Under the pieces are notes generated by a model, which was not told the origin of the DNA, did no database searches, and worked only from the letters and a program-made list of their open reading frames with translations. Below are positions 1,821-27,715 of a DNA stretch of 64,000 nt, in pieces. This DNA is from Aequorivita sp. (GTDB lineage: Bacteria > Bacteroidota > Bacteroidia > Flavobacteriales > Flavobacteriaceae). The stretch spans positions 1 to 64,000 of the forward strand of contig JAGXGE010000015.1 in the NCBI GenBank assembly GCA_024637015.1, in the 5' to 3' direction. Both the position numbers and the translations under genes were made by a program. Position 1 is the stretch's first letter. Every line of letters starts with the position of its first letter.

Positions 1821-1848
1821 CTGACAACCCACAACTGACAACCGACAA
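1821..1848. repeat. Heptamer tandem array, 4 units
   Basis: Four consecutive 7-base units: ctgacaa, cccacaa, ctgacaa, ccgacaa. The array begins seven bases after the stop codon of the zinc-finger gene. The period is the same as in the other arrays of this window although the unit differs. Confidence 0.8.
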
Positions 1849-2040
1849 CCCATTCACGGATACTCCATAGCAAAGCCATACCAAAGCCATAGATACTTCA
1901 TTAAATTGTAAGAAAACAGCCCTTTTTTCCTACAAATTTAAAATGTCTAATAAGACTGCTTTATAAGCGTCCTGAAATCAGTGGCGCCAAATAAATATTC
2001 ATAATTAATTTTTTCCATTTGAAGTCTACTAGATCCTATC

Positions 2041-2225
2041 TCGTTTTCCAACCTCGTACCTCGTACCTCATCGCTCGTACCTCGTACTTCATCTCTCGTG
2101 CCTCGTGCTTCGTCGCTCGTACCTCGTACTTCGTCGTTCGTACTTCGTCGTTCCCACCTCGTCGTTCAAACTTCGTAGCTAATTCCTCTTCGCTAACTCC
2201 TCTTCGCTAATCCTCATCGCTAAAT
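2041..2225. repeat. Long degenerate heptamer array, about 23 units of the type tcgtacy
   Basis: The stretch can be read as continuous 7-base units, for example tcgtacc, tcgtacc, tcatcgc, tcgtacc, tcgtact, passing into tcttcgc and taactcc at the right end. The period stays in register for about 180 bases although units differ at several positions, which points to old expansion followed by point mutation. It lies about 60 bases before the start of the propeller gene. Confidence 0.85.
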
Positions 2226-2283
2226 CAAACAATTGCAAAACCCACCCCGTTTAAGTACCTTCAACTTTTAAAAAATTAAATCG

Positions 2284-5124
2284 ATGAAAAACCTTTTCTT
2301 TTCGGCGCTCTGCCTAGCTACTGCAGTCGCTTTTTCCCAACAACCCGCTACTCCTGCAACCACTGCGTCAAGTAGCATCACTCAAAAAATACAACTGGCA
2401 CAAGCTTCTCCTGTTAAAAACCTGCCTTTTAAAAACATAGGTCCGACTATTATGAGCGGCCGTGTAGTTGATTTTGCAGTAAATCCAAACAATCCTATCG
2501 AGTTCTATGTAGGTTACGCTAGTGGTGGTTTATGGCATACAAGCAATAACGGCACTTCCTTTACACCTGTAATGGATAATAGTCCAACCCAAAATGTGGG
2601 TTGTGTGGCGGTAGATTGGCAAAATGGCACCATTTGGGTAGGCACTGGCGAGGTGAACGCTTCCCGTTCCTCATACGCCGGAATTGGCCTTTTGAAAAGC
2701 GACGATAAAGGCAAAACCTGGCAAAATATGGGGCTTATGGATAGCCACCACATTAGTAGTATTCTTATAAATCCATCCAATCCCAATGAAGTAATTGTGG
2801 GTGCAGTGGGTCATTTGTATTCTCCCAATGAGGAGCGAGGTGTTTTTAAAACCATGGATGGTGGCAAAACGTGGAACAAAACACTTTTTATAAATAATCA
2901 AACAGGAATTATTGAAATTTCCGCGAATCCTAAAAACTTTAATACCATGTATGCCACCGCTTGGGATAAAGACCGTAAAGCTTGGAATTTTGAAGGTAGT
3001 GGTGCGGGCAGTGGTGTTTATAAAAGCACGGATGCCGGTAGTACTTGGGCAAAAGTTTCTAACGAAAACAGTGGCTTGCCAATAGGCAAGGGTATGGGTC
3101 GTATGGGCACGGCTGTGGTGGATGACAGCACGGTTTATTTAATTGTTGACAACCAATTCCACAGAAAAGAAGAAGCTAAAAAAGAAGAAACAGACATCCT
3201 CATCAAAGACGATTTCAAAAAAATGGACGTAGCTTCCTTTCTTGCCTTGGACGATAAAAAGCTAAACCAATTTCTAAAAATGAACGGTTTTCAGGAAAAA
3301 TACGAAGCCGAAAATGTAAAACAAATGGTCCGCGTAGGCACCGTAAAGCCTGAAGATTTGGCAAGATACCTAGAAGATGCCAACAGCGCACTTTTTGACA
3401 CGCCTGTTATTGGTGCTGAGGTGTACAAAAGTACCGATGGTGGAAAAACCTGGAAGAAAACCCACGAAGGCTTCTTAGATGATTTGTATTATTCCTATGG
3501 CTATTACTTTGGAAAAATCCACGTGGACCCCAACGATGCCAATAAAATATATGTGTATGGCGTACCCATTCTAAAATCTGCCGATGGCGGAAAAACTTTT
3601 GAAACAATTGACGCAGATAACGTCCATGGCGACCACCACGCACTGTGGATAGACCCCAAAATGCCCGGCCACTTAATTGATGGCAATGACGGTGGCGTAA
3701 ACATAAGTTATGACGACGGCAAAACGTGGATAAAGAATAATGCTCCTGCGGTGGGTCAATTTTATTCTGTAAATGTAGATCACGAAAAAGATTATAATGT
3801 TTATGGTGGCTTGCAGGACAATGGCGTTTGGGTAGGGCCACACGATTATGAAGCAAGTCCTGGCTGGTTGCAAGAGGGTAAATATCCGTATGAATTTATC
3901 TTTGGCGGCGACGGAATGCAAGTGCAGATTGATAGTCGTAACAGCAATATTGTTTACACTGGATTTCAATTTGGGAATTATTACAGATTGAACCGAAATG
4001 GTGCCGAACCTGTTTACATTCAGCCGAAACACGAATTGGGAGATAGCCCGTATCGCTTCAACTGGCAAACACCTATTTTTTTGAGTCTACACAACCAAGA
4101 CATTCTCTATTTAGGCGGAAATAAATTGATGCGCAGCATGAACCAAGGCGATGATTGGACTGCGATTTCAGAAGATTTAACGCAGGGCGGAAAACCGGGA
4201 AATGTAGCTTATGGAACCCTCACAACGATTAGTGAATCCCCATTTCAATTTGGATTGTTATACACAGGAACCGATGATGGTTTGGTCTATGTTTCAAAAG
4301 ATGGGGGTGGAAATTGGATAAAAATTTCAGATAGCTTTCCAAAAGATCTTTGGGTGAGCCGTGTAATTGCTTCTTCACATAAAAAAGAACGCGTGTATGT
4401 TACACTAAACGGCTATCGTTGGGATGATTTTAAACCCTATGTTTATGTAAGTGAAAATTATGGCGCAACTTGGAAAGACATCAGTAGTAATTTACCAGTT
4501 TCCTCGGTAAACGTAATCAAAGAAGATCCTGTAAATGAAAACTTACTGTATTTAGGAACGGATAACGGTGCTTATGTTTCCTTCAATCGTGGCGAAAGTT
4601 GGGAGGTATTTTCAAAAGAGTTGCCAAATGTTGCAGTTCACGATTTAGTGATCCAGCCCGAGGCAAAAGATTTGGTTTTGGGAACCCACGGAAGATCGCT
4701 GTATGTTTCCGATATTTCATTGCTTCAAAAATTAAACGATAAAACAATGGGTGAAGTGGTTCTTTCTGAAATGAAGCCTGTAAATTTCTCACCTCGCTGG
4801 GGAAGCAAATGGAGCTCTTGGGGCGAAGTGTATGAACCAAAAACTAAAATTCAGTTTTACACCCCACAAAGTGGAAAAGCAACAATAACCATCAAAACAG
4901 AAGACGGAAAAGAGCTGAAAAGGCTATCTATAGATGCTGAAAAAGGCGTTAATATTATTGAATATGATTTTTCCATTTCAGAAAAAGGAATAAAGATGCT
5001 TGAAAAAGATAATGCGAAATTAAAAAAAGCCGAAAACGGTAGGTATTACTTGCCAAAAGGCAACTATGAATTGGGTGTAAATTTATTAGCAAAATTTTCT
5101 ACAATTGTTTTATCGATTAAATAA
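2284..5124 (+). CDS. Secreted Asp-box (BNR/VPS10-like) beta-propeller protein
   Basis: A 946-residue exported protein with a signal peptide (residues 1-19, ending FSQQ). At least ten Asp-box motifs of the S-x-D-x-G-x-T-W type are spread through it, for example SDDKGKTW, TMDGGKTW, STDGGKTW, SYDDGKTW and SENYGATW. These mark sortilin/sialidase-like beta-propellers, so the fold is probably two stacked propellers, followed by a beta-sandwich tail of about 90 residues. Databases often name such proteins glycosyl hydrolases, but no catalytic residues can be assigned from sequence alone. There is no type IX sorting tail. The last 75 residues have a decayed second copy at 6343-6579. Confidence 0.85.
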   Translation: MKNLFFSALCLATAVAFSQQPATPATTASSSITQKIQLAQASPVKNLPFKNIGPTIMSGRVVDFAVNPNNPIEFYVGYASGGLWHTSNNGTSFTPVMDNSPTQNVGCVAVDWQNGTIWVGTGEVNASRSSYAGIGLLKSDDKGKTWQNMGLMDSHHISSILINPSNPNEVIVGAVGHLYSPNEERGVFKTMDGGKTWNKTLFINNQTGIIEISANPKNFNTMYATAWDKDRKAWNFEGSGAGSGVYKSTDAGSTWAKVSNENSGLPIGKGMGRMGTAVVDDSTVYLIVDNQFHRKEEAKKEETDILIKDDFKKMDVASFLALDDKKLNQFLKMNGFQEKYEAENVKQMVRVGTVKPEDLARYLEDANSALFDTPVIGAEVYKSTDGGKTWKKTHEGFLDDLYYSYGYYFGKIHVDPNDANKIYVYGVPILKSADGGKTFETIDADNVHGDHHALWIDPKMPGHLIDGNDGGVNISYDDGKTWIKNNAPAVGQFYSVNVDHEKDYNVYGGLQDNGVWVGPHDYEASPGWLQEGKYPYEFIFGGDGMQVQIDSRNSNIVYTGFQFGNYYRLNRNGAEPVYIQPKHELGDSPYRFNWQTPIFLSLHNQDILYLGGNKLMRSMNQGDDWTAISEDLTQGGKPGNVAYGTLTTISESPFQFGLLYTGTDDGLVYVSKDGGGNWIKISDSFPKDLWVSRVIASSHKKERVYVTLNGYRWDDFKPYVYVSENYGATWKDISSNLPVSSVNVIKEDPVNENLLYLGTDNGAYVSFNRGESWEVFSKELPNVAVHDLVIQPEAKDLVLGTHGRSLYVSDISLLQKLNDKTMGEVVLSEMKPVNFSPRWGSKWSSWGEVYEPKTKIQFYTPQSGKATITIKTEDGKELKRLSIDAEKGVNIIEYDFSISEKGIKMLEKDNAKLKKAENGRYYLPKGNYELGVNLLAKFSTIVLSIK

Positions 5125-5133
5125 TTTCCTACA

Positions 5134-5141
5134 TTTGATTC
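5134..5141 (+). promoter_or_regulatory. Bacteroidota -7 element TACATTTG
   Basis: This matches TAnnTTTG exactly and lies 20 bases before the ATG of the sorting-domain protein. The nearest upstream TTG is 26 bases away, a little far for a -33 box. Confidence 0.5.
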
Positions 5142-5161
5142 ATAACAATTAAAAATTTTAT

Positions 5162-6283
5162 ATGATGAAAAAACTACTTATTCTTTCAATCGCTTTTGCA
5201 TTAGTTAGCGGTATTTCTACTTTTGCACAGGAAGCGGAAGCTACTCCATATTCAAATGGACAGCCTACTACTGAAAATACCAATGCGTTATTTGACCTTC
5301 TTACACTTGTGGATGCAGGCGCTTCAATAGGAACCAATGGCCTTGCTGCGGTCATATATTTTAATGATCAATACATCACTACAAGGTGGGACGCGACCAT
5401 GTCAGTAGATTTTTATCGTTTGGATAACACTGGGGTTCTGATTGAAACCTTCCAGATTCCAGGGGTGGGTGGCGTGCGTTCAATAACCTCGAATGGTACA
5501 AGTTTGTTTATGGGTACGGCTGGATCAGTTATTTATGAAATCGATCCAGTTAGTATGACAATTGATAATACAATTAACATAATTTCTTCTGCAGCTGCTC
5601 GTATGCTTACCTATGATGAAACGCTTGATGGCGGAAACGGAGGTTTTTGGATAGGTAGTTTTGCAAATGACATTGCTTCCATTGATATGGATGGAAATCA
5701 ACTTTCAGTAATATCTGCAGCTACTCACCAAACGGTGGTTTATGGGGGTGCAATTGATAATGTATCGCCCGGAGGCCCATTTCTTTGGATCCACGATCAA
5801 ACTGGAACTGCCCCAAGTAGAGATCTTGTTACGCAATTAAACCCAGCTACAGGAGTTCCTACTGGAGTTGTTTATGATTTCTCTGCTGATGGATTTGCCT
5901 CCGGGGCTACTGAGGTACTTGCGGGAGGGCTGTCAATAACAGATGGGCTAGATGGCCACAATGGTTTAGCATTGATAGGTATGTGCCAATGTACTCCATC
6001 CAACCTGATTTTTGCTGTGGAATTGACTCCTTCTTTAGGGGTGACTGACAATGCTATATCAAGCTTTACCCTTTATCCAAACCCTGCAAACGGAAAAGTT
6101 AACATCAACACTACTGTTGCTGGTGAAAAACAAGTTGTAGTTTACGATATTTTAGGTAAGCAGGTCATCAATACAACTATTGCTGGAGGAGAGTTGAATA
6201 TTTCTTCTCTAAAAGCTGGTGTTTATATGGTAAGCGTTACGCAAAACAAAGCAACTGCTACTAAGAAGTTAGTAGTTCAGTAA
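5162..6283 (+). CDS. Type IX secretion cargo protein with C-terminal sorting domain
   Basis: A 373-residue protein with a signal peptide (residues 1-22, ending STFAQ) and a classical type A sorting tail (TIGR04183) over the last 75 residues: SFTLYPNPANGKVNI, then YDILGKQV, LKAGVYMV and a final KKLVVQ. The tail would direct it through the type IX secretion system to the cell surface or medium. The middle, rich in G, N, D and beta-strand residues, looks like a propeller-type repeat domain, but no enzymatic motif can be named. Two adjacent ATG codons (5162 and 5165) are possible starts. It has its own -7 element and its own terminator, so it is probably a single-gene unit inserted between a gene and that gene's broken second copy. 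Confidence 0.85.
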   Translation: MMKKLLILSIAFALVSGISTFAQEAEATPYSNGQPTTENTNALFDLLTLVDAGASIGTNGLAAVIYFNDQYITTRWDATMSVDFYRLDNTGVLIETFQIPGVGGVRSITSNGTSLFMGTAGSVIYEIDPVSMTIDNTINIISSAAARMLTYDETLDGGNGGFWIGSFANDIASIDMDGNQLSVISAATHQTVVYGGAIDNVSPGGPFLWIHDQTGTAPSRDLVTQLNPATGVPTGVVYDFSADGFASGATEVLAGGLSITDGLDGHNGLALIGMCQCTPSNLIFAVELTPSLGVTDNAISSFTLYPNPANGKVNINTTVAGEKQVVVYDILGKQVINTTIAGGELNISSLKAGVYMVSVTQNKATATKKLVVQ

Positions 6284-6303
6284 ATAACTTTTTAAGTTAA
6301 TAA

Positions 6304-6336
6304 AAAAAACCATTCACCGTCAGTGAATGGTTTTTT
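6304..6336 (+). terminator. Rho-independent terminator
   Basis: A 14-base perfect stem (6304-6317 with 6323-6336), a 5-base loop and flanking A and T runs, 20 bases after the stop codon of the sorting-domain gene. The T-run forms part of the stem. Confidence 0.9.
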
Positions 6337-6342
6337 GTTATA

Positions 6343-6579
6343 CACATCAAAACCCGAGAAAGAAAAGAACTCCAAACGTTGACCACAGATGCAACTAAAG
6401 GCGTAAATGAGTTGGATTGTGATTTGTCCATTTCCGAAAAAGCCAGCAAACTACTGGAGAAGAATGATATTAAATTGAAGCAAGCCGAAAACAAGAAACA
6501 GTATCTTCCGAAAGGAAAATATAAGGTAAGCGTTTCAGTAAATATTAAGACTGCAACTTCCGAATTGGAAGTTAAGTAG
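6343..6579 (+). pseudogene. 3' remnant of a second Asp-box propeller gene
   Basis: About 79 codons, read in one frame to the stop at 6577-6579, encode a tail clearly related to the last 75 residues of the propeller protein at 2284-5124: HIKT against TIKT, KELQTL against KELKRL, KGVNEL against KGVNII, SISEK identical, KLKQAEN against KLKKAEN, and YLPKGKY against YLPKGNY. The homology begins just after the terminator at 6304-6336, and no 5' part of the gene remains. A TTG at 6379 could start a 66-residue peptide, but there is no signal peptide or promoter, so this is probably a non-functional leftover of a tandem duplication. Confidence 0.8.
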
Positions 6580-6652
6580 CCCGATGTATTTAAACCCATT
6601 CTAAATAGATTTTAAACAATTAAGAATGTTTGGCAACAAGCCGTTTGAAGTG

Positions 6653-6660
6653 TATTTTTG
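6653..6660 (+). promoter_or_regulatory. sdh operon promoter (-7 TATTTTTG, -33 TTG)
   Basis: TATTTTTG matches TAnnTTTG exactly. A TTG at 6630-6632 lies 20 bases upstream, the usual spacing. The predicted leader before sdhC is about 23 bases. Confidence 0.75.
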
Positions 6661-6687
6661 CACAACTATTCTTGAAATAAAACCATA

Positions 6688-7344
6688 ATGGCAATACTAT
6701 CCTCTTCAATTGCACGAAAAGTTGCTATGGCACTTTCGGGCTTATTCCTTGTCTTCTTTTTGGCACAACATTTTACCATCAACATCACTTCGGTCATAGA
6801 TCCTGATACTTTCAACAGTTGGTCTCATTTTATGGGGCATAACATTTTGGTGCAGTTTATTCTGCAACCAGTTTTGATGTTTGGGGTAGTTTTTCATTTT
6901 ATAATGGGAATTGTACTCGAAATAAAAAACAACAATGCAAGGCAGATTAGCTACAAATCCTTTAAAGGAAACAAAAACTCAACTTGGGTTTCCCGAAATA
7001 TGATTATTAGCGGTGCCGTTGTGTTGGCATTTTTGGGACTTCACTTTTACGATTTCTGGTTTCCCGAAATAATCCACAAATACATTGAAAACAATCCACT
7101 GGATCCAACACGTTATTACCCAGAGTTGGTTCATAAATTTGAAAGCCCTGTGCGCACAGGTTTGTACTGTTTGGCTTTTGTGCTTTTGATGCTTCACCTT
7201 TGGCACGGCTTTTCTTCATCTTTCCAGAGTATGGGATGGAACAACAAATATTCGAAAGCCTTAAAAGGATTCACGAAGTTTTACGCAATATTTATTCCTC
7301 TTGGATTTATTTTCATTGCGCTATACCTTCACTTTAATCAATAA
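6688..7344 (+). CDS. sdhC: Succinate dehydrogenase cytochrome b subunit
   Basis: The 218-residue membrane anchor of succinate:quinone oxidoreductase (complex II) of the cytochrome b558 type (TIGR02046), which carries heme and passes electrons to menaquinone. Five hydrophobic helices can be seen, near residues 11-29, 50-75, 105-125, 150-172 and 192-214. Histidines within or next to them (H27, H46, H71 in VFHFIMG, H118 in GLHFYDF, H175 in HLWHG) are candidates for the heme ligands. The first gene of the sdhCAB operon, it is followed by sdhA after 20 bases and has a good promoter just upstream. Having one large anchor subunit and no sdhD is the normal Bacteroidota arrangement. Confidence 0.95.
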
Positions 7345-7364
7345 TCACCACGAAACGCAACGCT

Positions 7365-9368
7365 ATGTCAACATTAGATTCAAAAATCCCAAAAGGACCC
7401 TTAGCAGATAAGTGGACAAAACATAAAAACGATATAAACCTGGTTAACCCAGCCAATAAACGTAATATAGACGTAATTGTAGTGGGAACAGGTCTTGCAG
7501 GTGGAAGTGCTGCTGCAACGCTTGCAGAATTAGGTTATAACGTAAAAACATTCTGCTATCAAGATTCTCCCCGCCGTGCGCACTCTATCGCTGCACAGGG
7601 AGGTATCAACGCTGCAAAGAATTACCAAGGCGATGGAGATTCAAACTATAGATTATTTTATGACACCGTAAAAGGTGGCGATTACCGTTCACGCGAAGGA
7701 AATGTATACCGTCTTGCTGAGGTTTCTGCAAATATTATTGACCAATGCGTGGCACAGGGTGTTCCCTTTGCCCGCGAATACGGTGGTTATTTGGATAACC
7801 GTTCTTTTGGAGGGGTTTTGGTTTCGCGTACTTTTTATGCGAAAGGACAAACAGGCCAACAATTGCTTTTAGGAGCGTATTCCGCAATGAACCGCCAAAT
7901 AAACCGCGGAAAAATTACACCTTACAACCGTCACGAAATGCTTGATTTAGTGATTGTGGACGGTAAAGCGAGAGGGATCATTGCCCGAAATTTAGTTACT
8001 GGTGAAATTGAAAGACATTCCGCTCACGCCGTGGTTATTGCTTCGGGTGGCTACGGAAACGTTTTCTATCTTTCCACAAACGCAATGGGAAGTAATGTTA
8101 CTGCTTCCTGGAAGATTCATAAAAGAGGCGCGTATTTCGCAAACCCTTGCTATACACAAATTCACCCAACGTGTATTCCTGTTTCTGGTGATCATCAAAG
8201 TAAATTGACATTGATGTCTGAGTCTTTGAGAAACGATGGTAGAATTTGGGTTCCAAAGAAGAAGGAGGATGCTGAAGCGATTCGCCAAGGAAAGAAAAAG
8301 CCGAAAGATCTTTCAGAAGCCGAACGTGATTATTACTTAGAAAGAAGATATCCTTCTTTCGGTAACTTGGTGCCACGTGATGTGGCGTCACGTGCTGCAA
8401 AAGAACGTTGCGATGCAGGTTTTGGTGTAAATAAAACTGGACAGGCTGTATTCCTTGATTTTGCTTCTGCAATTCAACGATACGGAAAAGAACGCGCCGG
8501 AATACAAGGAAATCACAATCCTTCCGATGAAGAAATATTGAAACTTGGAAAGCAGGTTATCGAAGAAAAATACGGAAACCTTTTCCAGATGTATGAGAAG
8601 ATCGTTGATGAAAACCCCTACGAAACCCCAATGATGATTTATCCTGCCGTGCATTACACTATGGGCGGTGTTTGGGTAGATTACAACTTGCAATCCACTA
8701 TTCCGGGCTGCTACGTTACAGGTGAAGCCAATTTTAGCGACCATGGCGCAAACCGTTTGGGTGCTTCTGCCTTAATGCAAGGTTTGGCAGATGGTTACTT
8801 TGTGTTGCCATACACCATTGGCGATTATCTTTCAAAAGACATTAAAACAGGAAAAATACCAACAGACACTAAAGAGTTTGACGAAGCCGAAAACAAGATT
8901 CGTGAACTTTTGGAGAAGTTGATAAACAATAAAGGAACACATTCCGTGGATCATTTCCATAAAAAATTGGGCCACATTATGTGGAACAAATGCGGAATGG
9001 CGCGTAACGCGGAAGATTTAAAATCTGCAATGTCTGAAATTAGGGCACTACGCGAAGAATTCTGGAAGGATGTGAAAATCCCTGGAGGAATGAATGAAAT
9101 GAATGCCGAGCTTGAAAAAGCAACACGCGTTGCCGACTTCTTGGAGCTAGGTGAACTTTTTGCAAAAGATGCTTTAGATAGAAATGAATCCTGTGGTGGC
9201 CACTTCCGTGAAGAATACCAAACCGAGGAAGGGGAAGCACTTCGAGACGACGAAAACTTTATGTACGTTGCCGCTTGGGAATATACCGGAGATCCTGGAA
9301 ATGAAGTGCTTCATAAAGAAAAATTGGAATACGAAAATATTGAAGTTAAATCGAGGAGTTATAAATAG
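7365..9368 (+). CDS. sdhA: Succinate dehydrogenase flavoprotein subunit
   Basis: The 667-residue catalytic subunit, which oxidises succinate to fumarate and carries covalent FAD. The dinucleotide-binding motif is [12 protein letters not shown] at residues 39-50. H73 in [10 protein letters not shown] is the expected site of the 8-alpha-N3-histidyl FAD link. [11 protein letters not shown] and [10 protein letters not shown] are characteristic of the family, and [10 protein letters not shown] lies in the C-terminal helical domain. The length fits the Bacteroidota/epsilon-proteobacterial type (about 660). The stop codon is followed at once by the left heptamer array that borders the inserted four-helix-bundle gene, so sdhB is almost 500 bases away instead of a few. 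Confidence 0.97.
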
Positions 9369-9369
9369 A

Positions 9370-9397
9370 GTTAATGGTTAAGCGTTAGGTGTTAAGG
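9370..9397 (+). repeat. Left heptamer array (gttannn, 4 units) bordering the inserted gene
   Basis: Four 7-base units in register: gttaatg, gttaagc, gttaggt, gttaagg. The 21 bases at 9377-9397 match the reverse complement of 9825-9845 at 18 of 21 positions, so this array and the right-hand array form an inverted pair around the four-helix-bundle gene. It begins two bases after the sdhA stop codon. Confidence 0.85.
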
Positions 9398-9422
9398 GAA
9401 TATAATTGAAAAGGAAATTAAA

Positions 9423-9800
9423 GTGGGCAATATAAATTCTTTTGAGGATTTAGAGTGTTGGAAATCGGCAACCGACTTAAGACGCTATGTTTCCAAAAGC
9501 ATTTTGCCGAAATTTCCAGCAGATGAAAAGTTTGCCCTTACAAGCCAGTTAAGACGTTCTTCCCGATCGGTTTCCGATAATATTTCGGAAGGATATGGAA
9601 GGTATCATTTTCAAGAGAATATTCAAGCGTGTAGAATGGCACGCGGTTCTTTATGTGAATCATTAAATCAGGTTATTATCGCTAGGGATGAGGATTATAT
9701 TAATGACGAGATTATGTTGGAATTCCGACAGATTTATGAAAAAACCAAAGCTATTCTAAACGGCTATATTAATTATTTAAAGATTGCCAAGAAGCAATAA
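9423..9800 (+). CDS. Four-helix-bundle protein (23S rRNA intervening-sequence / S23 family)
   Basis: A 125-residue protein of the TIGR02436 family, first seen as an open frame inside intervening sequences of 23S rRNA genes and related to the Avd accessory protein of diversity-generating retroelements. Family features visible are SFEDLECWKSA near the start, TSQLRRSSRSVSDNISEGYGR (split here over 47-67) and the helical C-terminus ending in NYLKIAKK. These proteins form basic homopentameric bundles that bind nucleic acid; the cellular role is unknown. The start is GTG at 9423. The striking point is its position between sdhA and sdhB, flanked by inverted heptamer arrays, which suggests it moved in as a unit. 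It is co-transcribed with the sdh genes. Confidence 0.88.
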   Translation: MGNINSFEDLECWKSATDLRRYVSKSILPKFPADEKFALTSQLRRSSRSVSDNISEGYGRYHFQENIQACRMARGSLCESLNQVIIARDEDYINDEIMLEFRQIYEKTKAILNGYINYLKIAKKQ

Positions 9801-9824
9801 TTATAGAAATAAAAAGTGTTTAGC

Positions 9825-9859
9825 GCTTAACGCCTAACACTTAACACATAACTTTTAAC
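9825..9859 (-). repeat. Right heptamer array (gttannn on the minus strand, 5 units)
   Basis: Five 7-base units: gcttaac, gcctaac, acttaac, acataac, ttttaac; a sixth, more degenerate unit (gtttagc) precedes them at 9818-9824. Read on the minus strand each unit is gttannn, as in the left array. The array ends three bases before the ATG of sdhB. Confidence 0.85.
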
Positions 9860-9862
9860 ATC

Positions 9863-10609
9863 ATGAAGTTAACACTAAAAATTTGGCGTCAAAAAAACGC
9901 AACCACTAAGGGAGAATTAAAAACATATCCTATTGACGGAGTAGAAGGTGACATGTCTTTTTTAGAAATGCTCGACGTTCTCAATGAAGGTTTAATAAAC
10001 AAAGGCGAAGAGCCCGTAGTTTTTGACCATGACTGCCGTGAAGGAATTTGCGGAAGCTGCTCGTTGCAAATAAACGGTGAGCCACATGGGCCAGACCGAT
10101 TGGTTACAACTTGTCAATTGCACATGCGTATGTTCAACGATGGCGATACTATTGTAATTGAACCGTTCCGAGCAAAGGCTTTTCCTGTAATAAAGGATTT
10201 GGTGGTGGATAGAACCGCCTTTGACAGAATTCAACAGGCTGGAGGTTATATTTCAGTGAATACATCTGGAAACACTATTGATGCCAACACTATTCCCATA
10301 AACAAACACGATGCAGATGAATCTTTCAATGCAGCAACATGTATTGGTTGTGGTGCTTGTGTGGCTGCCTGTAAAAACGCCAGTGCAATGCTTTTCACTT
10401 CTGCAAAAGTAAGCCAGTTCGCATTGCTTCCACAAGGAAGAATTGAAGCAACAGAGCGTGTTTTAAATATGGTAGCTCAAATGGACAAAGAAGGTTTTGG
10501 AAACTGTACTAACACCGGTGCCTGCGAAATTGAGTGTCCTAAAGGAATTTCCTTGGAAAACATTGCCCGAATGAACCGTGAATATTTAAGCGCGAGTTTG
10601 AAAGGATAA
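9863..10609 (+). CDS. sdhB: Succinate dehydrogenase iron-sulfur subunit
   Basis: The 248-residue electron-transfer subunit. The 2Fe-2S plant-ferredoxin-type cluster is bound by C58, C63, C66 and C84 (CREGICGSC, then TTC). A second domain binds the 4Fe-4S and 3Fe-4S clusters through [11 protein letters not shown] (about 154-164) and [14 protein letters not shown] (about 213-226). It takes electrons from the SdhA flavin and passes them to quinone at SdhC. It is unusually far from sdhA because of the inserted four-helix-bundle gene, and the right heptamer array reaches to within three bases of its ATG, so these repeats form its translation initiation region. The operon ends at the terminator at 10634-10664. 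Confidence 0.96.
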
Positions 10610-18980: not shown

Positions 18981-19004
18981 AATTGTTTCTTTTTCAATTT
19001 GTGC

Positions 19005-19012: not shown

Positions 19013-19075
19013 ATTTTGCGTTTTAAATATAAGGAATTTTTAAATTTTTATATAAAATGATTTCAAGCTCTTCTA

Positions 19076-20155: not shown

Positions 20156-20201
20156 TGGATAAAATTAATCTATATACCTTTAAATTTTAAAGGATTAAGG
20201 T

Positions 20202-20233
20202 TTGATTTATTGATTTTAAAATATGTATATTTG
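20202..20233 (+). promoter_or_regulatory. hup promoter (-33 TTG, -7 TATATTTG)
   Basis: TTG at 20202-20204 and TATATTTG at 20226-20233, with 21 bases between, which fits the Bacteroidota consensus. The leader before the hup ATG is about 47 bases. Confidence 0.75.
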
Positions 20234-20284
20234 CGGTCTCTAAAAAAAATCTAGTAAAAGAAAATTAATTAAAATTTAAAAGCA

Positions 20285-20578: not shown

Positions 20579-20587
20579 TAATAACCC

Positions 20588-20608
20588 GTCCTGAAGTGAA
20601 TTCGGGAC
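20588..20608 (+). other. Hairpin between hup and the 30-residue basic protein
   Basis: An 8-base stem with one G-T pair (20588-20595 with 20601-20608) and a 5-base loop. There is no T run after it, so it is more likely a processing or stability element than a terminator. The small gene starts 20 bases later. Confidence 0.45.
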
Positions 20609-20627
20609 ATTAATAAAAGACTTTAGT

Positions 20628-20720
20628 ATGCCAAGTGGTAAAAAAAGAAAAAGACATAAGGTAGCGACTCACAAGCGCAAGAAAAGACGTCGCGCTAACC
20701 GCCACAAAAAGAAAAAGTAG
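20628..20720 (+). CDS. 30-residue, extremely basic protein, probably ribosome-associated
   Basis: The peptide is MPSGKKRKRHKVATHKRKK followed by RRRANRHKKKK: almost wholly Lys, Arg and His, with no acidic residue. Tiny proteins of this kind are widespread in Bacteroidota and are often annotated AURKAIP1/COX24 (DUF1713), a family related to mitoribosomal mS38. A Bacteroidota-specific ribosomal protein, bL38, was reported from the Flavobacterium ribosome structure; I cannot decide between these two from sequence. Its place after hup and just before a terminator that overlaps its stop codon argues that it is a real, expressed gene. Confidence 0.75.
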   Translation: MPSGKKRKRHKVATHKRKKRRRANRHKKKK

Positions 20721-20744
20721 TTTCTAAACTACTTTTTCTGTTTT
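20710..20744 (+). terminator. Terminator overlapping the stop codon of the basic protein gene
   Basis: A 13-base perfect stem (20710-20722 with 20727-20739), a 4-base loop, then gtttt. The left arm contains the last Lys codons and the TAG. Confidence 0.8.
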
Positions 20745-20934
20745 AAAAGTGTTTCGAAAATTGTACCTTTTTGGTGCTATTTTCGAATAAAACAAACAAA
20801 AAATCGTTCTTTGAAAATGAGATTGCAGCTGCCGGCTTTTGGTTATGGTGCAGTTTCGCCGGATTTTTATATAAAATCTGTGAAAAATATTGTTTAATTA
20901 GTCCGCATTGTGCGGACAACAAAATTAATGTAAA
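20745..20934 (+). promoter_or_regulatory. Putative structured 5' leader of rng
   Basis: About 190 bases without a gene hold several complementary segments: ttcgaaaat (about 20754) with attttcgaa (about 20779), ccggc with gccgg around 20835-20865, and a perfect 7-base stem, gtccgca (20901-20907) with tgcggac (20911-20917), 17 bases before the GTG start. E. coli RNase E controls its own mRNA through a 5' leader hairpin; a similar role here is inference. Confidence 0.4.
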
Positions 20935-22479
20935 GTGAACAACGAATTATTTATTAGATCCGGTTCACAAGAAGTTGATTTTGCCCTTTTAAAGGATGGA
21001 AAACTTATAGAACTTCACAAGGAAGAAGAAGGTAATAATTTTACGGTAGGCGACATATTTCTCGCCAAAATTCGTAAAACTGTTCCTGGGCTTAATGCCG
21101 CCTTTGTAAACGTTGGCTACGAGAAAGATGGTTTTTTACACTATCACGATCTCGGTCCAAAAGTGCTTTCACAATTGAAATTTGTTAAAAGTGTAAGTTC
21201 AGGTAAGTTAAAAGATTATTCCTTAAATAATTTTCCATTTGAAAAAGAGATTGATAAGCACGGCAACTTGAATGATGCCTTAAAAAGCAATCAATCTATC
21301 TTGGTTCAAATTGTAAAAGAACCCATATCCACAAAAGGACCACGTATTAGTTCCGAGCTTTCTATAGCTGGAAGATATATAGTGCTGGTTCCCTTTTCCG
21401 ATCGCGTTTCTGTTTCACAAAAAATAGAAAGCAACGAAGAAAAAGACAGGTTAAAACGCTTGATAACAAGTATTAAACCAAAAGGATTTGGCGTAATTAT
21501 ACGCACCGTAGCCGAGGGCAAAAAAGTAGCAGAACTGGACAAAGACTTACAAAACCTTATAGAGCGCTGGACAGCGATGTGTAAGAAGCTACAAAGGGCG
21601 CACCACCCTTCAAAAGTGCTGAGCGAGCTAAACAGGGGAGCCTCTATCATCCGTGATATGTTTAACGATTCATTCTCTGCAATACATATTGACGATGAGA
21701 CCCTATACTTGCAAATAAAAGATTATGTGCAGGAAATCGCACCAAAAAAAGACAATATCGTAAAGTTCTATGATTCCAATGTTCCGATGTTTGAAAAATT
21801 CGGCATCGAGCGGCAGATTAAAACTTCCTTCGGAAAAACAGTATCAGGTAGCAAAGGAGCCTACTTGGTAATAGAACACACCGAAGCAATGCACGTAATA
21901 GATGTGAACAGCGGTAACCGAAGCAACAAGCAAAAAACACAGGAAGGCACAGCGCTAGAAGTGAATATGATTGCAGCCACCGAGGTGGCAAGACAGCTAA
22001 GGTTGCGCGATATGGGAGGAATTATTGTGATTGATTTTATTGATTTGGCAAATGCCAATCACCGTAAACAGCTATACAATCACCTTCGTGACGAAATGAA
22101 GGACGATAGAGCAAAGCACAAAATTCTACCTCCAAGCAAATTTGGGTTAATACAGATAACCCGCCAACGTGTTAGGCCAGAGATGAACATCAAGACCCGT
22201 GAAGAAGATCCTAGTAATGTGATTGACGGGGAAATTGAAGCGCCTATCATTGTTATAAATAGAATAAATGAAGAGGTAAAACGCCTTTTCACAAAAGACT
22301 ATAAAAAGATAACGCTCAATACGCATCCTTTTATAGCGGCCTTTTTAACCAAAGGTTTCCCAAGTGTGCGTACCAAATGGTTTTTGGAGCACAAAAAATG
22401 GGTAAAAATCCAACCTCGGGATGCTTATACGTATCTTGAATATCATTTCAACGACAAAGACGGTGAATTGATAAAATAA
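20935..22479 (+). CDS. rng: Ribonuclease E/G
   Basis: A 514-residue endoribonuclease for rRNA maturation and mRNA decay. The N-terminal S1 domain includes VGDIFLAKIRKTVPGLNAAFVNVG (in two parts, about 39-62) and GFLHYHDLG. The DNase I-like catalytic part holds the two metal-binding acidic motifs VIDVNSGNR and IIVIDFIDLAN. It lacks the long acidic C-terminal scaffold of enterobacterial RNase E, so it is of the RNase G length class. The start is GTG at 20935. It follows hup and the basic protein gene and has its own strong terminator. Confidence 0.95.
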   Translation: MNNELFIRSGSQEVDFALLKDGKLIELHKEEEGNNFTVGDIFLAKIRKTVPGLNAAFVNVGYEKDGFLHYHDLGPKVLSQLKFVKSVSSGKLKDYSLNNFPFEKEIDKHGNLNDALKSNQSILVQIVKEPISTKGPRISSELSIAGRYIVLVPFSDRVSVSQKIESNEEKDRLKRLITSIKPKGFGVIIRTVAEGKKVAELDKDLQNLIERWTAMCKKLQRAHHPSKVLSELNRGASIIRDMFNDSFSAIHIDDETLYLQIKDYVQEIAPKKDNIVKFYDSNVPMFEKFGIERQIKTSFGKTVSGSKGAYLVIEHTEAMHVIDVNSGNRSNKQKTQEGTALEVNMIAATEVARQLRLRDMGGIIVIDFIDLANANHRKQLYNHLRDEMKDDRAKHKILPPSKFGLIQITRQRVRPEMNIKTREEDPSNVIDGEIEAPIIVINRINEEVKRLFTKDYKKITLNTHPFIAAFLTKGFPSVRTKWFLEHKKWVKIQPRDAYTYLEYHFNDKDGELIK

Positions 22480-22481
22480 TC

Positions 22482-22517
22482 AAAACCCCTTCAATTAATT
22501 TTGAAGGGGTTTTTTTG
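22482..22517 (+). terminator. Rho-independent terminator of rng
   Basis: A 13-base perfect stem (22482-22494 with 22501-22513), a 6-base loop and a T run, directly after the stop codon. Confidence 0.92.
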
Positions 22518-22550
22518 TGTCCTGTTGTATCTATAGATACTTTTGATATT

Positions 22551-22571
22551 TTTCTTGTTTCTTGTTTCTTG
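22551..22571. repeat. Heptamer tandem array, 3 perfect units of tttcttg
   Basis: Three exact copies of tttcttg in the rng-recX gap; more degenerate 7-base units may continue to about 22599. Confidence 0.75.
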
Positions 22572-22652
22572 CAGCGAAGCGGTCTTGGCTCATTGTTCTT
22601 TTCCTTTAAATTAAAAATCATTTATCTTCACATAAAAATTTAGTTACAACCC

Positions 22653-23129
22653 TTGAACACTCACAAAACATACTCCGTTGAAGAAGCCACCAAAAGAATG
22701 GAGCGCTATTGTGCCTATCAAGAGCGTTGCCATAAAGAAGTGCATCAAAAACTGTATGAAATGCGAATGATCCCCTTAGCGATGGATGAAATAATAGACC
22801 ATTTGCTGAGACACAATTTTTTAAATGAAACTCGGTTTGCACAGGCTTTTGCGCGCGGAAAATTTAGAGTCAAAAAGTGGGGGAGAAATAGGATTGTGAA
22901 TGAATTGAAAATGCGCCAAATTTCAAAATTCAATATCAAAATTGCTTTAAAAGAAATACCCGATTCAGAATACTATAAAACATTTGAAGCCTTGGCAGAA
23001 AAGCGATTACAGCAATTGGTTTCAGAAAAAAATCTTCAGAAAAAGCGAAAGAAACTAGCAGACTATCTTTTTTATCGGGGGTGGGAGAGTGAGCTTGTTT
23101 ATGGTAAGGTTGGGGAAATCTCAAAATGA
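22653..23129 (+). CDS. recX: Regulatory protein RecX
   Basis: A 158-residue all-helical protein of three repeated three-helix units that binds RecA filaments and modulates recombination. Family features are EEATKRMERYCAYQERC (10-26), a positively charged middle (FRVKKWGRNRIVNELKMR), and the conserved end YLFYRGWESELVY. The likely start is TTG at 22653; the first in-frame ATG (residue 16) would remove part of the first helix. No recA is nearby. Confidence 0.88.
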   Translation: MNTHKTYSVEEATKRMERYCAYQERCHKEVHQKLYEMRMIPLAMDEIIDHLLRHNFLNETRFAQAFARGKFRVKKWGRNRIVNELKMRQISKFNIKIALKEIPDSEYYKTFEALAEKRLQQLVSEKNLQKKRKKLADYLFYRGWESELVYGKVGEISK

Positions 23130-23180
23130 TATTTGCGTGGGTAAGGAGTTGTAAGCTCGCGACGATGGAGGAATAGTATG

Positions 23181-23696
23181 TTAGATATTAAACGAAGCCC
23201 CAATATTCACTGAAACCTGATTATGCAGTTTTTCCGCAGGTGTTAACGAATCGGTATTGTATTTGGAAATGGGAGCGCTCACTTCCGTAAAAACACCAAA
23301 ACCACTAGTGAAAAAATAGCGAGCACCTAAATGGCCTCCAAAATTTTTCAAACTCGCGTAAAGTCCGGGATAAACATCAAAATTTTCATCAACATTTATA
23401 ACATTTCCGAGGTTTGCGTTGAAGCGTGCTCTTAAATCAAAACGATCTTCAAATTTAGCAAATGGCTCTTCATTGCCATCCAAATCCCGCACTTTATCAA
23501 TTCCCAAAAGATAGGCAGATGCTAATCCCAGCGAGATGTTTTCACCCACACCAAAATCCAAGCTTCCCATTATACCTGTACCGTTGCTCTGAAAATTAGC
23601 ACCGACTTGAAATTTCACATCACCTTTTCCAATAAAAGCCTGCCCAAAGGATAGTTGTATACATAGAAAGGTTATAACAGTTGCAAATGTCTTCAT
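23181..23696 (-). CDS. DUF6646 family predicted outer-membrane protein
   Basis: 171 residues from the chosen start, ATG at 23694-23696, which gives a signal peptide (MKTFATVITFLCIQLSFGQ). The mature part alternates short amphipathic beta strands (KFQVGANFQS, GHLGARYFF, GVFTEVSAPI) and ends in an aromatic residue two from the end (ASFNI), as expected for an eight-stranded outer-membrane barrel. DUF6646 has no known function. It lies convergent to recX and 41 bases downstream of the cupin gene. Confidence 0.7.
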   Translation of the reverse strand: MKTFATVITFLCIQLSFGQAFIGKGDVKFQVGANFQSNGTGIMGSLDFGVGENISLGLASAYLLGIDKVRDLDGNEEPFAKFEDRFDLRARFNANLGNVINVDENFDVYPGLYASLKNFGGHLGARYFFTSGFGVFTEVSAPISKYNTDSLTPAEKLHNQVSVNIGASFNI

Positions 23697-23737
23697 TTCA
23701 GAAAAATTTAAAAGAAAGATAGGCAATTCTTTTGGAA

Positions 23738-24604
23738 CTAAATCCCCTTATTGGTTCGAACAACAGCTTGTTCGTTTTTCCAATCTATCCATTTTTGACC
23801 TTTCAGCTTTCGCATAAATTGATCAAAATAGCGCATAAAGGCGATATTGTAAACGGCTTTTGCCAAGTTTTTGGGGTTTCGGGAAATGGCGCGCAGGCTC
23901 ATGGAAAAACCGGGCGTATTGTAACGCATATAATGCCAGTAGCCTTCGGGCATATACAAAACGTTCCCGTGCTCCAAATTTGCCTTGTAACCTTTTGCCT
24001 CCTTTAGCGCAGGCCATTTTTTATAATCGGGATCGTGAAAGTCAATGTCTTCTCTCGTAATTAAAGAATGGGGTATTTTGTAGAGGTAATCGTTTTGCTT
24101 TTGGTCAAAGAGAATTACTTCTTTTTCTCCCTGGAAGTGAAAATGAAATATGTTTGCCAAATCGATATCATAATGCATAAAGGTGTAGGAATCTCTTCCG
24201 CCGAAGAAAAGCATCGGTAGGCCTTTCATCAGTTTCAATCCAAAATCTGGATAGTCAAAATCGTTTTGAAGTTGTGGTACTTCTTTTAGTATATTCCAAA
24301 GAAAGATGCGGTATTTGGTGGGTTCCTTTTTTAGAAGTTCCACATAATCACGCATTTTCATTTTAGCGTGGGGCTCATTGAAACCATCTTTATGGCTCAC
24401 ATGGCGGTTGTCGTAGAGCGGAACCATTATATCTCCAGCAACATCAGCCATATAATCAAGGTTCCATTTTATAAATGCAGGCCACTCCTCTACAAACCTT
24501 TCAATAACGACGGGTTTTTGGGGTTTGAAGTAGTTTTTGATAAAATCTTCTTTGGTAATGGTTTTTACCTTATCAATTTGCTGTAGTTGCATAGTTTTCA
24601 TCAA
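23738..24604 (-). CDS. Cupin-like (JmjC fold) protein, probable Fe(II)/2-oxoglutarate oxygenase
   Basis: A 288-residue cytosolic protein of the cupin_8 type. The metal site can be assigned: HYD in TFMHYDIDL (about residues 143-151) and a distal histidine in GYWHYMRY (about 221-228), the HxD...H triad of JmjC-like oxygenases. QGEKEVILFDQ lies between them, on the fold's conserved strand. Family members hydroxylate proteins or small molecules; the substrate is unknown. The neighbours do not help. The start at 24604 is one of several close methionines (MMKTM). Confidence 0.82.
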   Translation of the reverse strand: MMKTMQLQQIDKVKTITKEDFIKNYFKPQKPVVIERFVEEWPAFIKWNLDYMADVAGDIMVPLYDNRHVSHKDGFNEPHAKMKMRDYVELLKKEPTKYRIFLWNILKEVPQLQNDFDYPDFGLKLMKGLPMLFFGGRDSYTFMHYDIDLANIFHFHFQGEKEVILFDQKQNDYLYKIPHSLITREDIDFHDPDYKKWPALKEAKGYKANLEHGNVLYMPEGYWHYMRYNTPGFSMSLRAISRNPKNLAKAVYNIAFMRYFDQFMRKLKGQKWIDWKNEQAVVRTNKGI

Positions 24605-24677
24605 CTGGTAAATTTACAAATCTCAATGTATTGTTTAGGTCAATGTTAATATAACTTTAAGGATTTAAGCAAAACAA

Positions 24678-24712
24678 AAATCCCAAACTCCTATTTATGG
24701 AATTTGGGATTT
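24678..24712 (-). terminator. Terminator of the atpD-atpC unit
   Basis: A 10-base stem (24678-24687 with 24703-24712), extended inside by tcc/gga. On the minus strand it is followed by TTTTTGTTTT, downstream of atpC. Confidence 0.85.
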
Positions 24713-24748
24713 GCCCCAATAGTTATCGGGATTGAAATTTTCAGCAGT

Positions 24749-25024
24749 TTAATCAGCTAAAACCATCACTCTGTTATTGTTGCACTCTACGGTTCCACCA
24801 GAAATCTGAAGAATCCATTTTCCATCCTCTTGGGTGAATTTTTTCTGAAATCCTTCCGCAATAGTTGGATTTCCTTTGAATTTCACTTTTCCTTCCTGCA
24901 AAACAGAAACAATAGGAGCGTGGTTGTTCAACATTTGGAATTCGCCTTCCACACCTGGAACTGTAATACTTTCTACTTCTCCAGCAACTAAGGATGCTTC
25001 GGGGGTAACTATTTCTAAGTACAT
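24749..25024 (-). CDS. atpC: F1 ATP synthase epsilon subunit, short form
   Basis: 91 residues, against about 130-140 in E. coli. Only the N-terminal beta-sandwich is present (MYLEIVTPEASLVAGEVESI, in part; PGVEGEFQMLNNHAPIVSVL, residues 24-43). The C-terminal helical hairpin, which inhibits ATP hydrolysis in other bacteria, is absent. Short epsilon subunits are known in Bacteroidota, so this is a lineage trait rather than a truncation. Together with atpD it forms a two-gene unit separate from the other ATP synthase genes, which are not in this window. A 15-base-pair hairpin built of heptamers lies in the atpD-atpC gap. Confidence 0.92.
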   Translation of the reverse strand: MYLEIVTPEASLVAGEVESITVPGVEGEFQMLNNHAPIVSVLQEGKVKFKGNPTIAEGFQKKFTQEDGKWILQISGGTVECNNNRVMVLAD

Positions 25025-25030
25025 ATTTTT

Positions 25031-25094
25031 TAGTTGTTTGTTGTTAGTTGATAGTTGTTGGAGAATCTATCAACCAACAACTATCAACCATTAA
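25031..25094. repeat. Inverted pair of heptamer arrays forming a 15-bp hairpin between atpD and atpC
   Basis: Left units: tagttgt, ttgttgt, tagttga, tagttgt (25031-25058). Right units: ctatcaa, ccaacaa, ctatcaa, ccattaa (25067-25094). The halves face each other, and 25047-25061 is perfectly complementary to 25074-25088 with a 12-base loop. The transcript of atpD-atpC should therefore carry a stable hairpin 22 bases before the atpC start. No T run follows, so termination is unlikely. Confidence 0.85.
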
Positions 25095-25099
25095 CCAAT

Positions 25100-26620
<1,521 letters not shown>

Positions 26621-26667
26621 TTATAGTTATCTAAGGGCGAAAAAACCACCCCTATTTTGAACGGTGC

Positions 26668-26699
26668 AAAGATAGTTTTTTCTGAATGAAATTTGCAAC
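26668..26699 (-). promoter_or_regulatory. atpD-atpC promoter (-33 TTG, -7 TATCTTTG)
   Basis: On the minus strand TTG (26697-26699) and TATCTTTG (26668-26675) are 21 bases apart, as expected. The leader is about 60 bases. Confidence 0.75.
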
Positions 26700-26773
26700 C
26701 CCAATCTTTAAAAAATTGGAGTTTTTTATGAAAAGACTTAACCTCTTTTTATAACCTGTGAAGTCTAATAGAA

Positions 26774-27667
26774 TCAGAGCTTTTCACACAGTCCACGAAC
26801 TTCTTTTGCAAAAAGTTCAATTATTTTTTTCTGAAGTGAATCATCTTTGGAAATACTGCGCCCGTCAATTTCAACAATAGGTGTAAGCTCGCCCATTGTT
26901 CCTGTTGCAAGAACACCTTCTGCATTGTAGAATTGTGAAAGTGTGATATCTGCTTCTGTAATTTCAATATTGTTTTTTTGGCACATTTCAATCACAGAAT
27001 TACGTGTAATTCCTGGAAGACAAGCGTGGGCGAAAGGCGTAAAAACCTTTCCATTTTTCACCATAAAAAGGTTGCTACCGTTAAGTTCAGCTATAAAACC
27101 ACGGTCGTCCAGCATTAATCCAGCGTCTTTTCCGGCAACGTTGGCCTGGATTTTCGCAATAATATTATTCAGCAGATTGTTATGATGAATTTTACTATCC
27201 AAAAATTGAGGTGAATTTCTGCGTTGGCTGGTGCTTATCACTTTTATTCCGTGATTATTGTCGTAAACTAAAGGTTTCCATTCTGCCAAAACAATTAAAC
27301 AAGAACCGCTTTGATTCAATCTTGGATCCATACCACTGGTAATTTTTTCACCGCGCGTCAACGTTAAACGGATGTGTGTATCATCAGTCATTCCATTGGC
27401 ATCGAGGGTTTGCTTAATAGCTTTTTTGATAAATTCTTTGGAAGGGATATCGGCAAATAGTAAGGTCTTTGCGGATTCGTGCAAACGGGTTAAGTGTTTG
27501 TCTAAACAGACTACGCCTTCGGGATAAACGCGCAAACCCTCCCAAACGGCATCACCGCCTTGCACTGAGCTGTCAAAAACCGAAACTTTTGCTTCGTTGC
27601 GCGGATATAATTTGTCTTTTATAAATACTTGAATGTTATCGTTTTTGGGGTTGGATTTTTGAAGCAT
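26774..27667 (-). CDS. Class IV aminotransferase (branched-chain / D-amino-acid type)
   Basis: A 297-residue PLP enzyme of fold type IV. The Schiff-base lysine is K159 in FLDSKIHHNN. AELNGSNLFMVKNG (about 192-205) and PGITRNSVIEMC are conserved strands around the cofactor phosphate, and GDAVWEGLRVY (38-48) is the usual N-terminal signature. Substrate class cannot be fixed: it could be an ilvE-like branched-chain, D-amino-acid or aminodeoxychorismate-type enzyme. It lies downstream of a sulfotransferase-like gene on the same strand. Six perfect copies of a heptamer sit six bases upstream of its ATG. Confidence 0.85.
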   Translation of the reverse strand: MLQKSNPKNDNIQVFIKDKLYPRNEAKVSVFDSSVQGGDAVWEGLRVYPEGVVCLDKHLTRLHESAKTLLFADIPSKEFIKKAIKQTLDANGMTDDTHIRLTLTRGEKITSGMDPRLNQSGSCLIVLAEWKPLVYDNNHGIKVISTSQRRNSPQFLDSKIHHNNLLNNIIAKIQANVAGKDAGLMLDDRGFIAELNGSNLFMVKNGKVFTPFAHACLPGITRNSVIEMCQKNNIEITEADITLSQFYNAEGVLATGTMGELTPIVEIDGRSISKDDSLQKKIIELFAKEVRGLCEKL

Positions 27668-27673
27668 TTTTTT

Positions 27674-27715
27674 GAGTTATGAGTTATGAGTTATGAGTTA
27701 TGAGTTATGAGTTAT
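27674..27715. repeat. Perfect heptamer array, 6 copies of gagttat
   Basis: Six exact consecutive copies, without a single mismatch, between the sulfotransferase-like gene and the aminotransferase gene. The array starts seven bases from the aminotransferase start codon. Perfect identity means the expansion is recent or still active, unlike the degenerate arrays elsewhere. Confidence 0.95.

Follow-up and report, generated by a model that had tools for sequence, protein, structure and literature searches.

The window is a 64,000-nucleotide stretch of an Aequorivita genome (contig JAGXGE010000015.1, positions 1 to 64,000, forward strand). It carries the succinate dehydrogenase genes, with the flavoprotein gene sdhA (7365-9368, + strand; Pfam PF00890 and PF02910) upstream of the iron-sulfur subunit gene sdhB (9863-10609, +; PF13085). 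An insert with three parts lies between the two genes. The left arm (9369-9397, +) is a tandem array of GTTANNN heptamers located directly 3' of the sdhA stop codon (9366-9368). The central part is a gene of the PF05635 family, a 23S rRNA IVP or four-helix-bundle protein (9423-9800, +; 125 aa, GTG start, Pfam E 1.7e-28). The right arm (9816-9859, +) is the reverse complement of GTTANNN heptamers and ends 3 nt before the sdhB ATG (9863). PF05635 is the only ORF of at least 100 aa in the element, and no transposase is encoded among the ORFs of this size. The flanks of the gene match each other in inverted orientation with a score of 20.5, compared to a mean of 10.5 for ORFs of the same genome. 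In the predicted RNA fold of 9366-9866 the arms pair (z = -6.14), and none of 100 shuffled sequences was equally stable.

A first-pass annotation of the window had described at least seven intergenic sites with tandem heptamers, and direct reading and Tandem Repeats Finder identify period-7 sequence at each of the seven listed. Not all are independent direct arrays, however: those at 9370 and 9825 form the inverted arm pair of a single insert, and 25031-25094 is a single hairpin. The hairpin (25027-25094, -) contains no gene and has a left arm of the GTTGATA type, a short loop, and a complementary right arm. Its halves (25027-25061 and 25067-25094) are made up of TTAGTTG and its reverse complement, and both flanking genes are on the - strand. 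At another locus (L307), a PF05635 gene is located at a junction whose neighbours are homologous to both neighbours of this hairpin. A single array of the right-arm type (27670-27720, -) has six TAACTCA units in sense (six exact TGAGTTA on the forward strand), is G-poor, and lies 2 nt 5' of the start of a class IV aminotransferase gene. Another single array (1824-1852, +) is composed of ACAACCC/ACAACTG heptamers 9 nt past a stop codon; it is G-poor and goes against the strand polarity described below. The array at 2051-2223 (+) is a long compound of several blocks of the CTCGTAC type, with a 77% similar counterpart elsewhere in the genome (C6:15945-16075). Three exact TTTCTTG units (22551-22571, +) are found 3' of an RNase E/G gene.

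Two other features of the window differ from these arrays. A 15-bp tandem, GACGTTTTGAACCAA, is present in 2.7 copies at 28514-28554. Part of its sequence is also found next to PF05635 genes of congeners (L194 and, with less clarity, L176), so it may represent a second family of repeats that occupies the same junctions. At the window edge, a 387-aa ORF (192-1355, -) is a candidate tyrosine recombinase as judged by eye.

The genome is 3.22 Mb in 39 contigs, of which 1.97 Mb (61%) was scanned with gene calls made by a crude longest-ORF rule. Period 7 accounts for 55 non-coding tandem arrays, period 8 for 17, and period 11 for five, with one each at periods 5, 6, 9, and 10. In coding DNA of the same scan, 13 arrays have period 7 versus eight at period 6 and eight at period 9. 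When 955 crudely defined intergenic regions (144 kb, from 1.58 Mb) are scanned by lag, lag 7 yields 42 sites, lag 8 yields 12, and lag 9 one, while lags 5, 6, and 10 yield none. The chance level, the mean of five dinucleotide shuffles of the intergenic regions, is 0.4 sites for lag 7 and 0.0 for lag 8. Period 7 is in excess over 6, 8, and 9 in non-coding DNA (55 arrays versus 1, 17, and 1), the excess that the first-pass annotation had asked for. Its view of a period of exactly seven is too narrow: seven is dominant, but eight forms a clear second class. Similarly, the units do differ between sites and are very diverse across the genome, but several have a GTT(A/G) core in common and are not wholly unrelated.

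Perfect heptamer arrays are observed at 7 of the 67 contig ends examined (78 ends in total), and two pairs of ends have a unit in common, so the assembly was probably interrupted by long arrays. Contigs C23 and C26 both have their 3' ends inside a PF05635 match, with 8-mer arrays nearby, and the assembly may therefore break at one element. Elsewhere, on C6:12863-18377, heptamer arrays and three different octamer arrays are clustered within 5.5 kb and surround ORFs, one of which is a candidate sensor kinase by eye. Perfect, expanded arrays at contig ends are in keeping with generic polymerase slippage, where a replicative polymerase in contact with about 7 nt would favour heptamer growth in any non-coding DNA, PF05635 genes being merely among the arrays. 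Most arrays of the genome also lack an adjacent PF05635 gene and an inverted partner, as slippage would have it. This explanation is nevertheless judged unlikely, as it predicts no tie to one gene family across many phyla, and such a tie is observed.

The genome has nine PF05635 matches, several of which are flanked on both sides by inverted 7- or 8-mer arrays. The unit is common to both arms of one element and different between elements. With 29 loci from relatives (one per genome), these make up a set of 38, and lag-7 or lag-8 windows are present in the flanks of 27 of them versus 7.4% of 1669 ORFs of the own genome (Fisher p 2e-21). Lags 3-6, 11, and 12 are found in the flanks of none of the 38 loci, and lags 9 and 10 in one each. 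The set was enlarged by 26 loci from four complete congeners (51 PF05635 matches) and by 29 from a survey of the phylum, in which 232 of 296 genomes have a PF05635 match. This gives 93 loci, 90 of them measured; L107, L110, and L132 are cut by contig ends and were left out. A further 88 loci come from named genomes (the best 80 of at least 392 PF05635 loci) and from plasmid records (8 used of 22 with a PF05635 match), and 87 were measured, L291 having a short flank. The resulting 177 loci are best-scoring matches rather than a random draw and include one locus counted twice (L114 = L281, Aequorivita aurantiaca). Bacteroidota, Planctomycetota, Acidobacteriota, Cyanobacteriota, Pseudomonadota, CPR, and others are covered.

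Clear inverted arms, defined by an inverted-match score of at least 14, are present at 136 of the 177 loci; the other 41 have no clear arms. The best period is 7 in 97 arm pairs, 8 in 32, and another value in seven. Because arms were chosen by inverted matching and not by periodicity, the period is not built into the set. The first Bacteroidota set has arms at 73/90 loci (best lag 7 in 51, 8 in 17, other in 5), and the further loci at 63/87 (46, 15, and 2). The latter consist of further Bacteroidota (30/41; 7:22, 8:7, 9:1), other phyla (28/39; 7:21, 8:6, 10:1), and Cyanobacteriota (5/7; 7:3, 8:2). The first-pass annotation held that length is constant while sequence is free, and this is borne out by a best period of 7 or 8 in 129/136 arm pairs from many phyla with differing units. 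Its comparison with the STRR heptamers of cyanobacteria, likewise tandem and intergenic, was also apt: arms are found at 5/7 cyanobacterial plasmid PF05635 loci, including one of Nostoc edaphicum (L331) with the arm unit AGTAGGG.

Control ORFs behave differently. A score of at least 14 is reached by 213 of 1656 ORFs of the own genome, with best lags spread over 4-12 (7:35, 8:18, 12:38), and by 34 of 241 ORFs in the same named loci, where the best lag is 7 in 11, 9 in eight, and 8 in four. At a score of at least 17.5, the value used for the stricter anatomy set, 48/90 loci have matching arms of their own, while left arms match right arms of other loci in 2.7%. The two flanks of a locus also resemble each other to some extent when compared in direct orientation (mean 15.1, at least 17.5 in 18/90; mean for mismatched inverted arms 10.7), and some flanks are thus not purely inverted. 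None of the 10 PF05635 loci submitted to Rfam, of the 177, gave a match, rRNA included, and the window PF05635 protein has no match in phage records at E 1e-5.

The 99 elements with a score of at least 17.5 have a median length of 506 nt and a median arm of 39 nt. Their left arm is G-rich and C-poor, with G>C in 86, G<C in nine, and a tie in four. Slippage alone would produce direct arrays with neither an inverted partner nor such a sense-strand polarity (86 versus 9). In the first Bacteroidota set, the gene points the same way as both of its neighbours at 82/90 loci and is opposed to both at 2/90. The sense bias is weaker elsewhere, with 19/39 co-directional and 4/39 opposed in other phyla and 4/7 and 3/7 in Cyanobacteriota.

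A function at the RNA level is one way to read this anatomy. The arms would pair in the mRNA for removal of the insert by RNase III or for split expression of the operon, and compensatory selection would maintain them. The strong pairing of the window arms (z -6.14) and the sense orientation in Bacteroidota (82 versus 2) are consistent with such a role, as is the poor self-pairing of C-poor left and G-poor right arms, and RNase III excision of an IVS has been reported (PMC4990558, in the part available). Less easily accommodated is the weaker sense bias outside Bacteroidota. Selection on RNA pairing was also sought in G-U wobble, and this sign was rejected: in 136 elements, G-U-compatible mismatches are not in excess (220 versus 260 other transitions). 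An RNA-level explanation of the arms is regarded as possible but somewhat doubtful, and a process acting on DNA is preferred because G-U pairs are not in excess.

sdhB is present in 27 of 28 genomes of the genus, the own genome included, and the sdhA-sdhB junction was read in 27, again counting the own genome. The junction is empty in eight, with 3-5 nt from stop to start, and a second sdhB copy (L169) is likewise empty. In 12 genomes, it is filled by an insert with arms, two of which have a clearly broken gene (L152, L168). Two genomes possess arrays but no gene (L156, L157), and five have another, array-free spacer. One and the same site therefore occurs in empty, filled, and gene-less states. 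No target-site duplication is obvious by eye at the sdh site, where empty sites have only the 3-5 nt spacer. Two unlike groups of PF05635 proteins, about 35% identical, occupy the junction. One of them, that of L145 and L160, is also found at this junction in loci of Lacinutrix, Winogradskyella, Capnocytophaga, and Polaribacter. In the other group, some members have GTTANNN (period 7) and others GTTATTNN (period 8). Because this single lineage shows both periods at the sdh site, the period is not rigidly fixed by the protein.

Other inserts and junctions recur as well. L147, L158, L159, and L166 have a common alternative insert at sdhA-sdhB of about 90 nt without heptamers, in which segments GAAATG(C/T)CC and GGGCATT(C/T)CATCTTCC could pair. 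A thiolase junction carries PF05635 elements in L174, L123, L126, L128, L117, and L122, from different species and families, and a metH junction carries them in L104, L115, and L281, from different species. The units at these two junctions are often unlike, and the junctions are either hot spots or sites of very old inserts.

Arms fit better within an element than between orthologous elements. Among 281 same-site pairs (45-98% protein identity), the own-arm score is above the cross score in 232 and below it in 42, with a mean of 18.3 within the element versus 13.7 against the arm of the orthologue. When each element is used once, the own arms fit better in about 37 of 44. Between different sites, arm likeness climbs with protein identity, from 0.22 at 30-40% to 0.43 above 70%. 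Above 70% identity the period is equal in 21/21 different-site pairs, some with unlike units nonetheless. L120 and L174 are located at two junctions of one genome; their proteins are 71% identical, and their left arms and unit are alike. On a protein tree of 128 elements, from which one period-8 element shorter than 80 aa was left out, the period label changes 16 times, compared to 27.9 +- 1.7 for shuffled labels (minimum 23, n=300). A period rigidly fixed by protein lineage was considered and holds only partly, as agreement between different sites is near chance below about 60% identity.

Inverted pairing is a property of PF05635 loci and not of arrays in general. As a genome-wide rule for arrays, inverted partners were rejected: a score of at least 14 is found in 9/72, compared to nine in reversed and six in complemented controls. 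Strand polarity extends further. From 73 arrays, 12 edge, 17 divergent, and 9 convergent arrays were left out, and 10 arrays far from both codons fall outside both classes. Arrays within 40 nt before a start have G<C in 10/11, and those within 40 nt after a stop have G>C in 11/14 (p 0.001); PF05635 elements account for three of these 25. The far arrays are G-poor in 7/10. The first-pass annotation had treated the arrays as a family of simple repeats; that they are simply free-standing is not supported, because arrays near starts and stops mostly show the strand polarity of PF05635 arms.

Junctions provide a further comparison. Those that match PF05635 junctions elsewhere on both sides make up 3/28 of array-bearing junctions versus 20/1141 of others (p 0.016), and the window hairpin (25027-25094) is among the three. 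When one shared neighbour is enough, the difference is small (5/28 versus 126/1141). Sharing of a unit between an element and other sites was tried in three genomes. Rhodanobacter (L322) has a single PF05635 match, with GGGATTC arms, and GGGATTC tandem arrays at 14 further sites, all without a PF05635 match. In G116, with one match, five further places carry the arm unit; three of them fall inside a 7-kb stretch, and two others are separated by 63 nt. G356 has two matches, and its arm unit recurs nowhere else. Three PF05635-free Bacteroidota (0.4 Mb, 26 kb intergenic) lack period-7 arrays and have a single array of period 8, where about 7.5 period-7 arrays are expected at the own-genome rate (p 5e-4); two of the three have a much higher G+C than the own genome. 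Five 20-kb stretches of PF05635-rich genomes contain five arrays in 12.5 kb, confined to two stretches. An absence of period-7 arrays from 26 kb of intergenic DNA in genomes that lack the gene argues against slippage in any non-coding DNA.

The array at the aminotransferase start (27670-27720) was followed through 19 congeners; a full-length match is present in 21 other genomes, of which G007 and G009 were left out. Strong arrays are present in eight, no spacer in five, and other spacers in six. Units vary, and so does the copy number of the array, which the first-pass annotation had suggested comparing. One congener (L343) has TAACTGA units. Three complete genomes with the site (G001, G002, G016) have no PF05635 gene there, their PF05635 places being elsewhere; the other 16 stretches are 360-370 nt and lie outside the PF05635 family search. 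A regulator of expression to which start-proximal arrays are tied could account for the G-poor composition before starts (10/11) and for TAACTGA and TAACTCA units at one start within the genus. Left arms past stop codons and units of free sequence misfit a single regulator, however, and 5/19 congeners have no spacer at this site, making the idea very unlikely.

The explanation favoured here, at a probability of roughly two in three, is that the heptamer arrays are arms, or remnants of arms, of PF05635 insertion elements of about 500 nt. Such an element consists of a left arm of tandem 7- or 8-mers, G-rich and C-poor, a PF05635 gene, and a right arm that is the reverse complement of the left. 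It resides between genes, mostly from stop to start of two neighbours that run in one direction, and shares their orientation. Slippage would change the copy number of the units, and the two arms may be kept alike at the DNA level by copying one from the other through template switching in the hairpin. The whole unit would be copied to new gene junctions, and loss of the gene would leave hairpins and then single arrays. The 7- or 8-nt register would be passed on with the element. The element is probably mobile, although its mobility is an inference, as is whatever maintains the register; the loci examined showed neither a transposition event nor a target-site duplication or an enzyme.

Because the register recurs in many phyla beside one gene family, the ruler may lie with the protein of the element sooner than with the host polymerase, although this is rather doubtful. 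Binding of the arms by the PF05635 protein, not the host polymerase, is the preferred way of setting the register, tentative and unproven as it is. Excision from mRNA by RNase III, by analogy with the rRNA IVS, may protect the host operon and is compatible with a process acting on DNA. A broader and more speculative proposal is that these are bacteria-wide mobile elements whose ends are recognised by spacing, where a four-helix-bundle protein copies arms in a 7- or 8-nt register without a transposase and gene-less derivatives make up much of the heptanucleotide excess. This is possible but doubtful. If true, ends marked by period rather than by sequence would be unusual for a mobile element. 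A tie between PF05635 and heptamers makes the arrays a candidate substrate for the protein and the protein a candidate source of the arrays, and both the heptamer excess and the role of PF05635 become testable through it.

The S23p-type ORF of 23S rRNA IVSs is taken here to be PF05635, and the family is presumably related to Avd of diversity-generating retroelements. Solved structures 2GSC (XCC0516) and 2RLD belong to the same sequence family as the window protein (E 1.9e-33 and 1.4e-13). The former is presumably a Xanthomonas campestris protein, and neither entry name carries a function. Despite the structures, no function of PF05635 proteins was found in the literature searched.

In Coxiella, the 23S rRNA IVS is a 428-nt insert with an S23p-type ORF and is described as a selfish element (PMC4990558, in the part available). 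The window element is similar in carrying an S23/IVP ORF (PF05635, E 1.7e-28), in enclosing it between complementary, stem-forming ends (also at 136/177 loci), and in size (428 nt versus a median of 506 nt). It differs in location, being between sdhA and sdhB and not in a 23S rRNA gene, as do the 82/90 Bacteroidota loci between co-directional ORFs. Its arms are tandem 7- or 8-mers, while the available part of PMC4990558 mentions no period. Unlike a classical IS or transposon, the window element has no transposase. It is best described as IVS-like, outside rRNA, with arms defined by period.

Heptamers have their own literature. A bacterial excess of heptanucleotide repeats has been on record since 2007 (cited in the available parts of PMC4679880 and PMC4692102). 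TAACTGA direct repeats are known from Beggiatoaceae, Cyanobacteria, and Bacteroidetes, as intergenic arrays near starts, with other heptamers in Aequorivita and Gramella (PMC4679880, in the part available). Heptamer repeats of Flavobacteriaceae are therefore already in print, contrary to the first-pass annotation, which knew of no equivalent there. Its idea of copying that measures length is not new, as a 7-nt polymerase contact as the cause of heptamers is attributed to Mrazek 2007 in PMC4679880. In the available parts of the literature searched, this contact is the sole cause of the excess encountered. The arrays described here resemble the TAACTGA repeats in being intergenic heptamers near starts, with TAACTGA itself at one congener site (L343), but the units of the window array at 27670-27720 read TAACTCA on the sense strand. 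One unit was studied in PMC4679880, and its main text, as far as available, has none of the four-helix or intervening-sequence terms searched.

GGGAATC and GGGGA(C/T)T repeats of Xanthomonas and Nostoc have been read as G-quadruplex sequences, and X. campestris has 70 convergent (inverted) heptamer pairs (PMC4692102, in the part available). The GGGATTC arms of the Rhodanobacter PF05635 element (L322) are similar to these repeats, and the available main text of that paper does not contain 'S23' or 'four helix'. Template switching maintains hairpins and is a DNA-level way to keep arms complementary (PMC8794818); in the part available, neither tandem heptamers nor PF05635 is its subject. Heptamer repeats and the rRNA IVS are each already in print. 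No link between PF05635 and heptamer arms was found among the matches listed in open-licence literature, a search that was not exhaustive and left subscription journals mostly outside.

Some cyanobacterial plasmid loci have unusual surroundings. PF05635 genes are found within CRISPR operons, between cas10 and cmr3 in L336 (1489-1845) and between cas6 and cas4 in L334 (1501-1860). In L331, the PF05635 gene is located between ribonucleotide reductase genes and is antisense to them.
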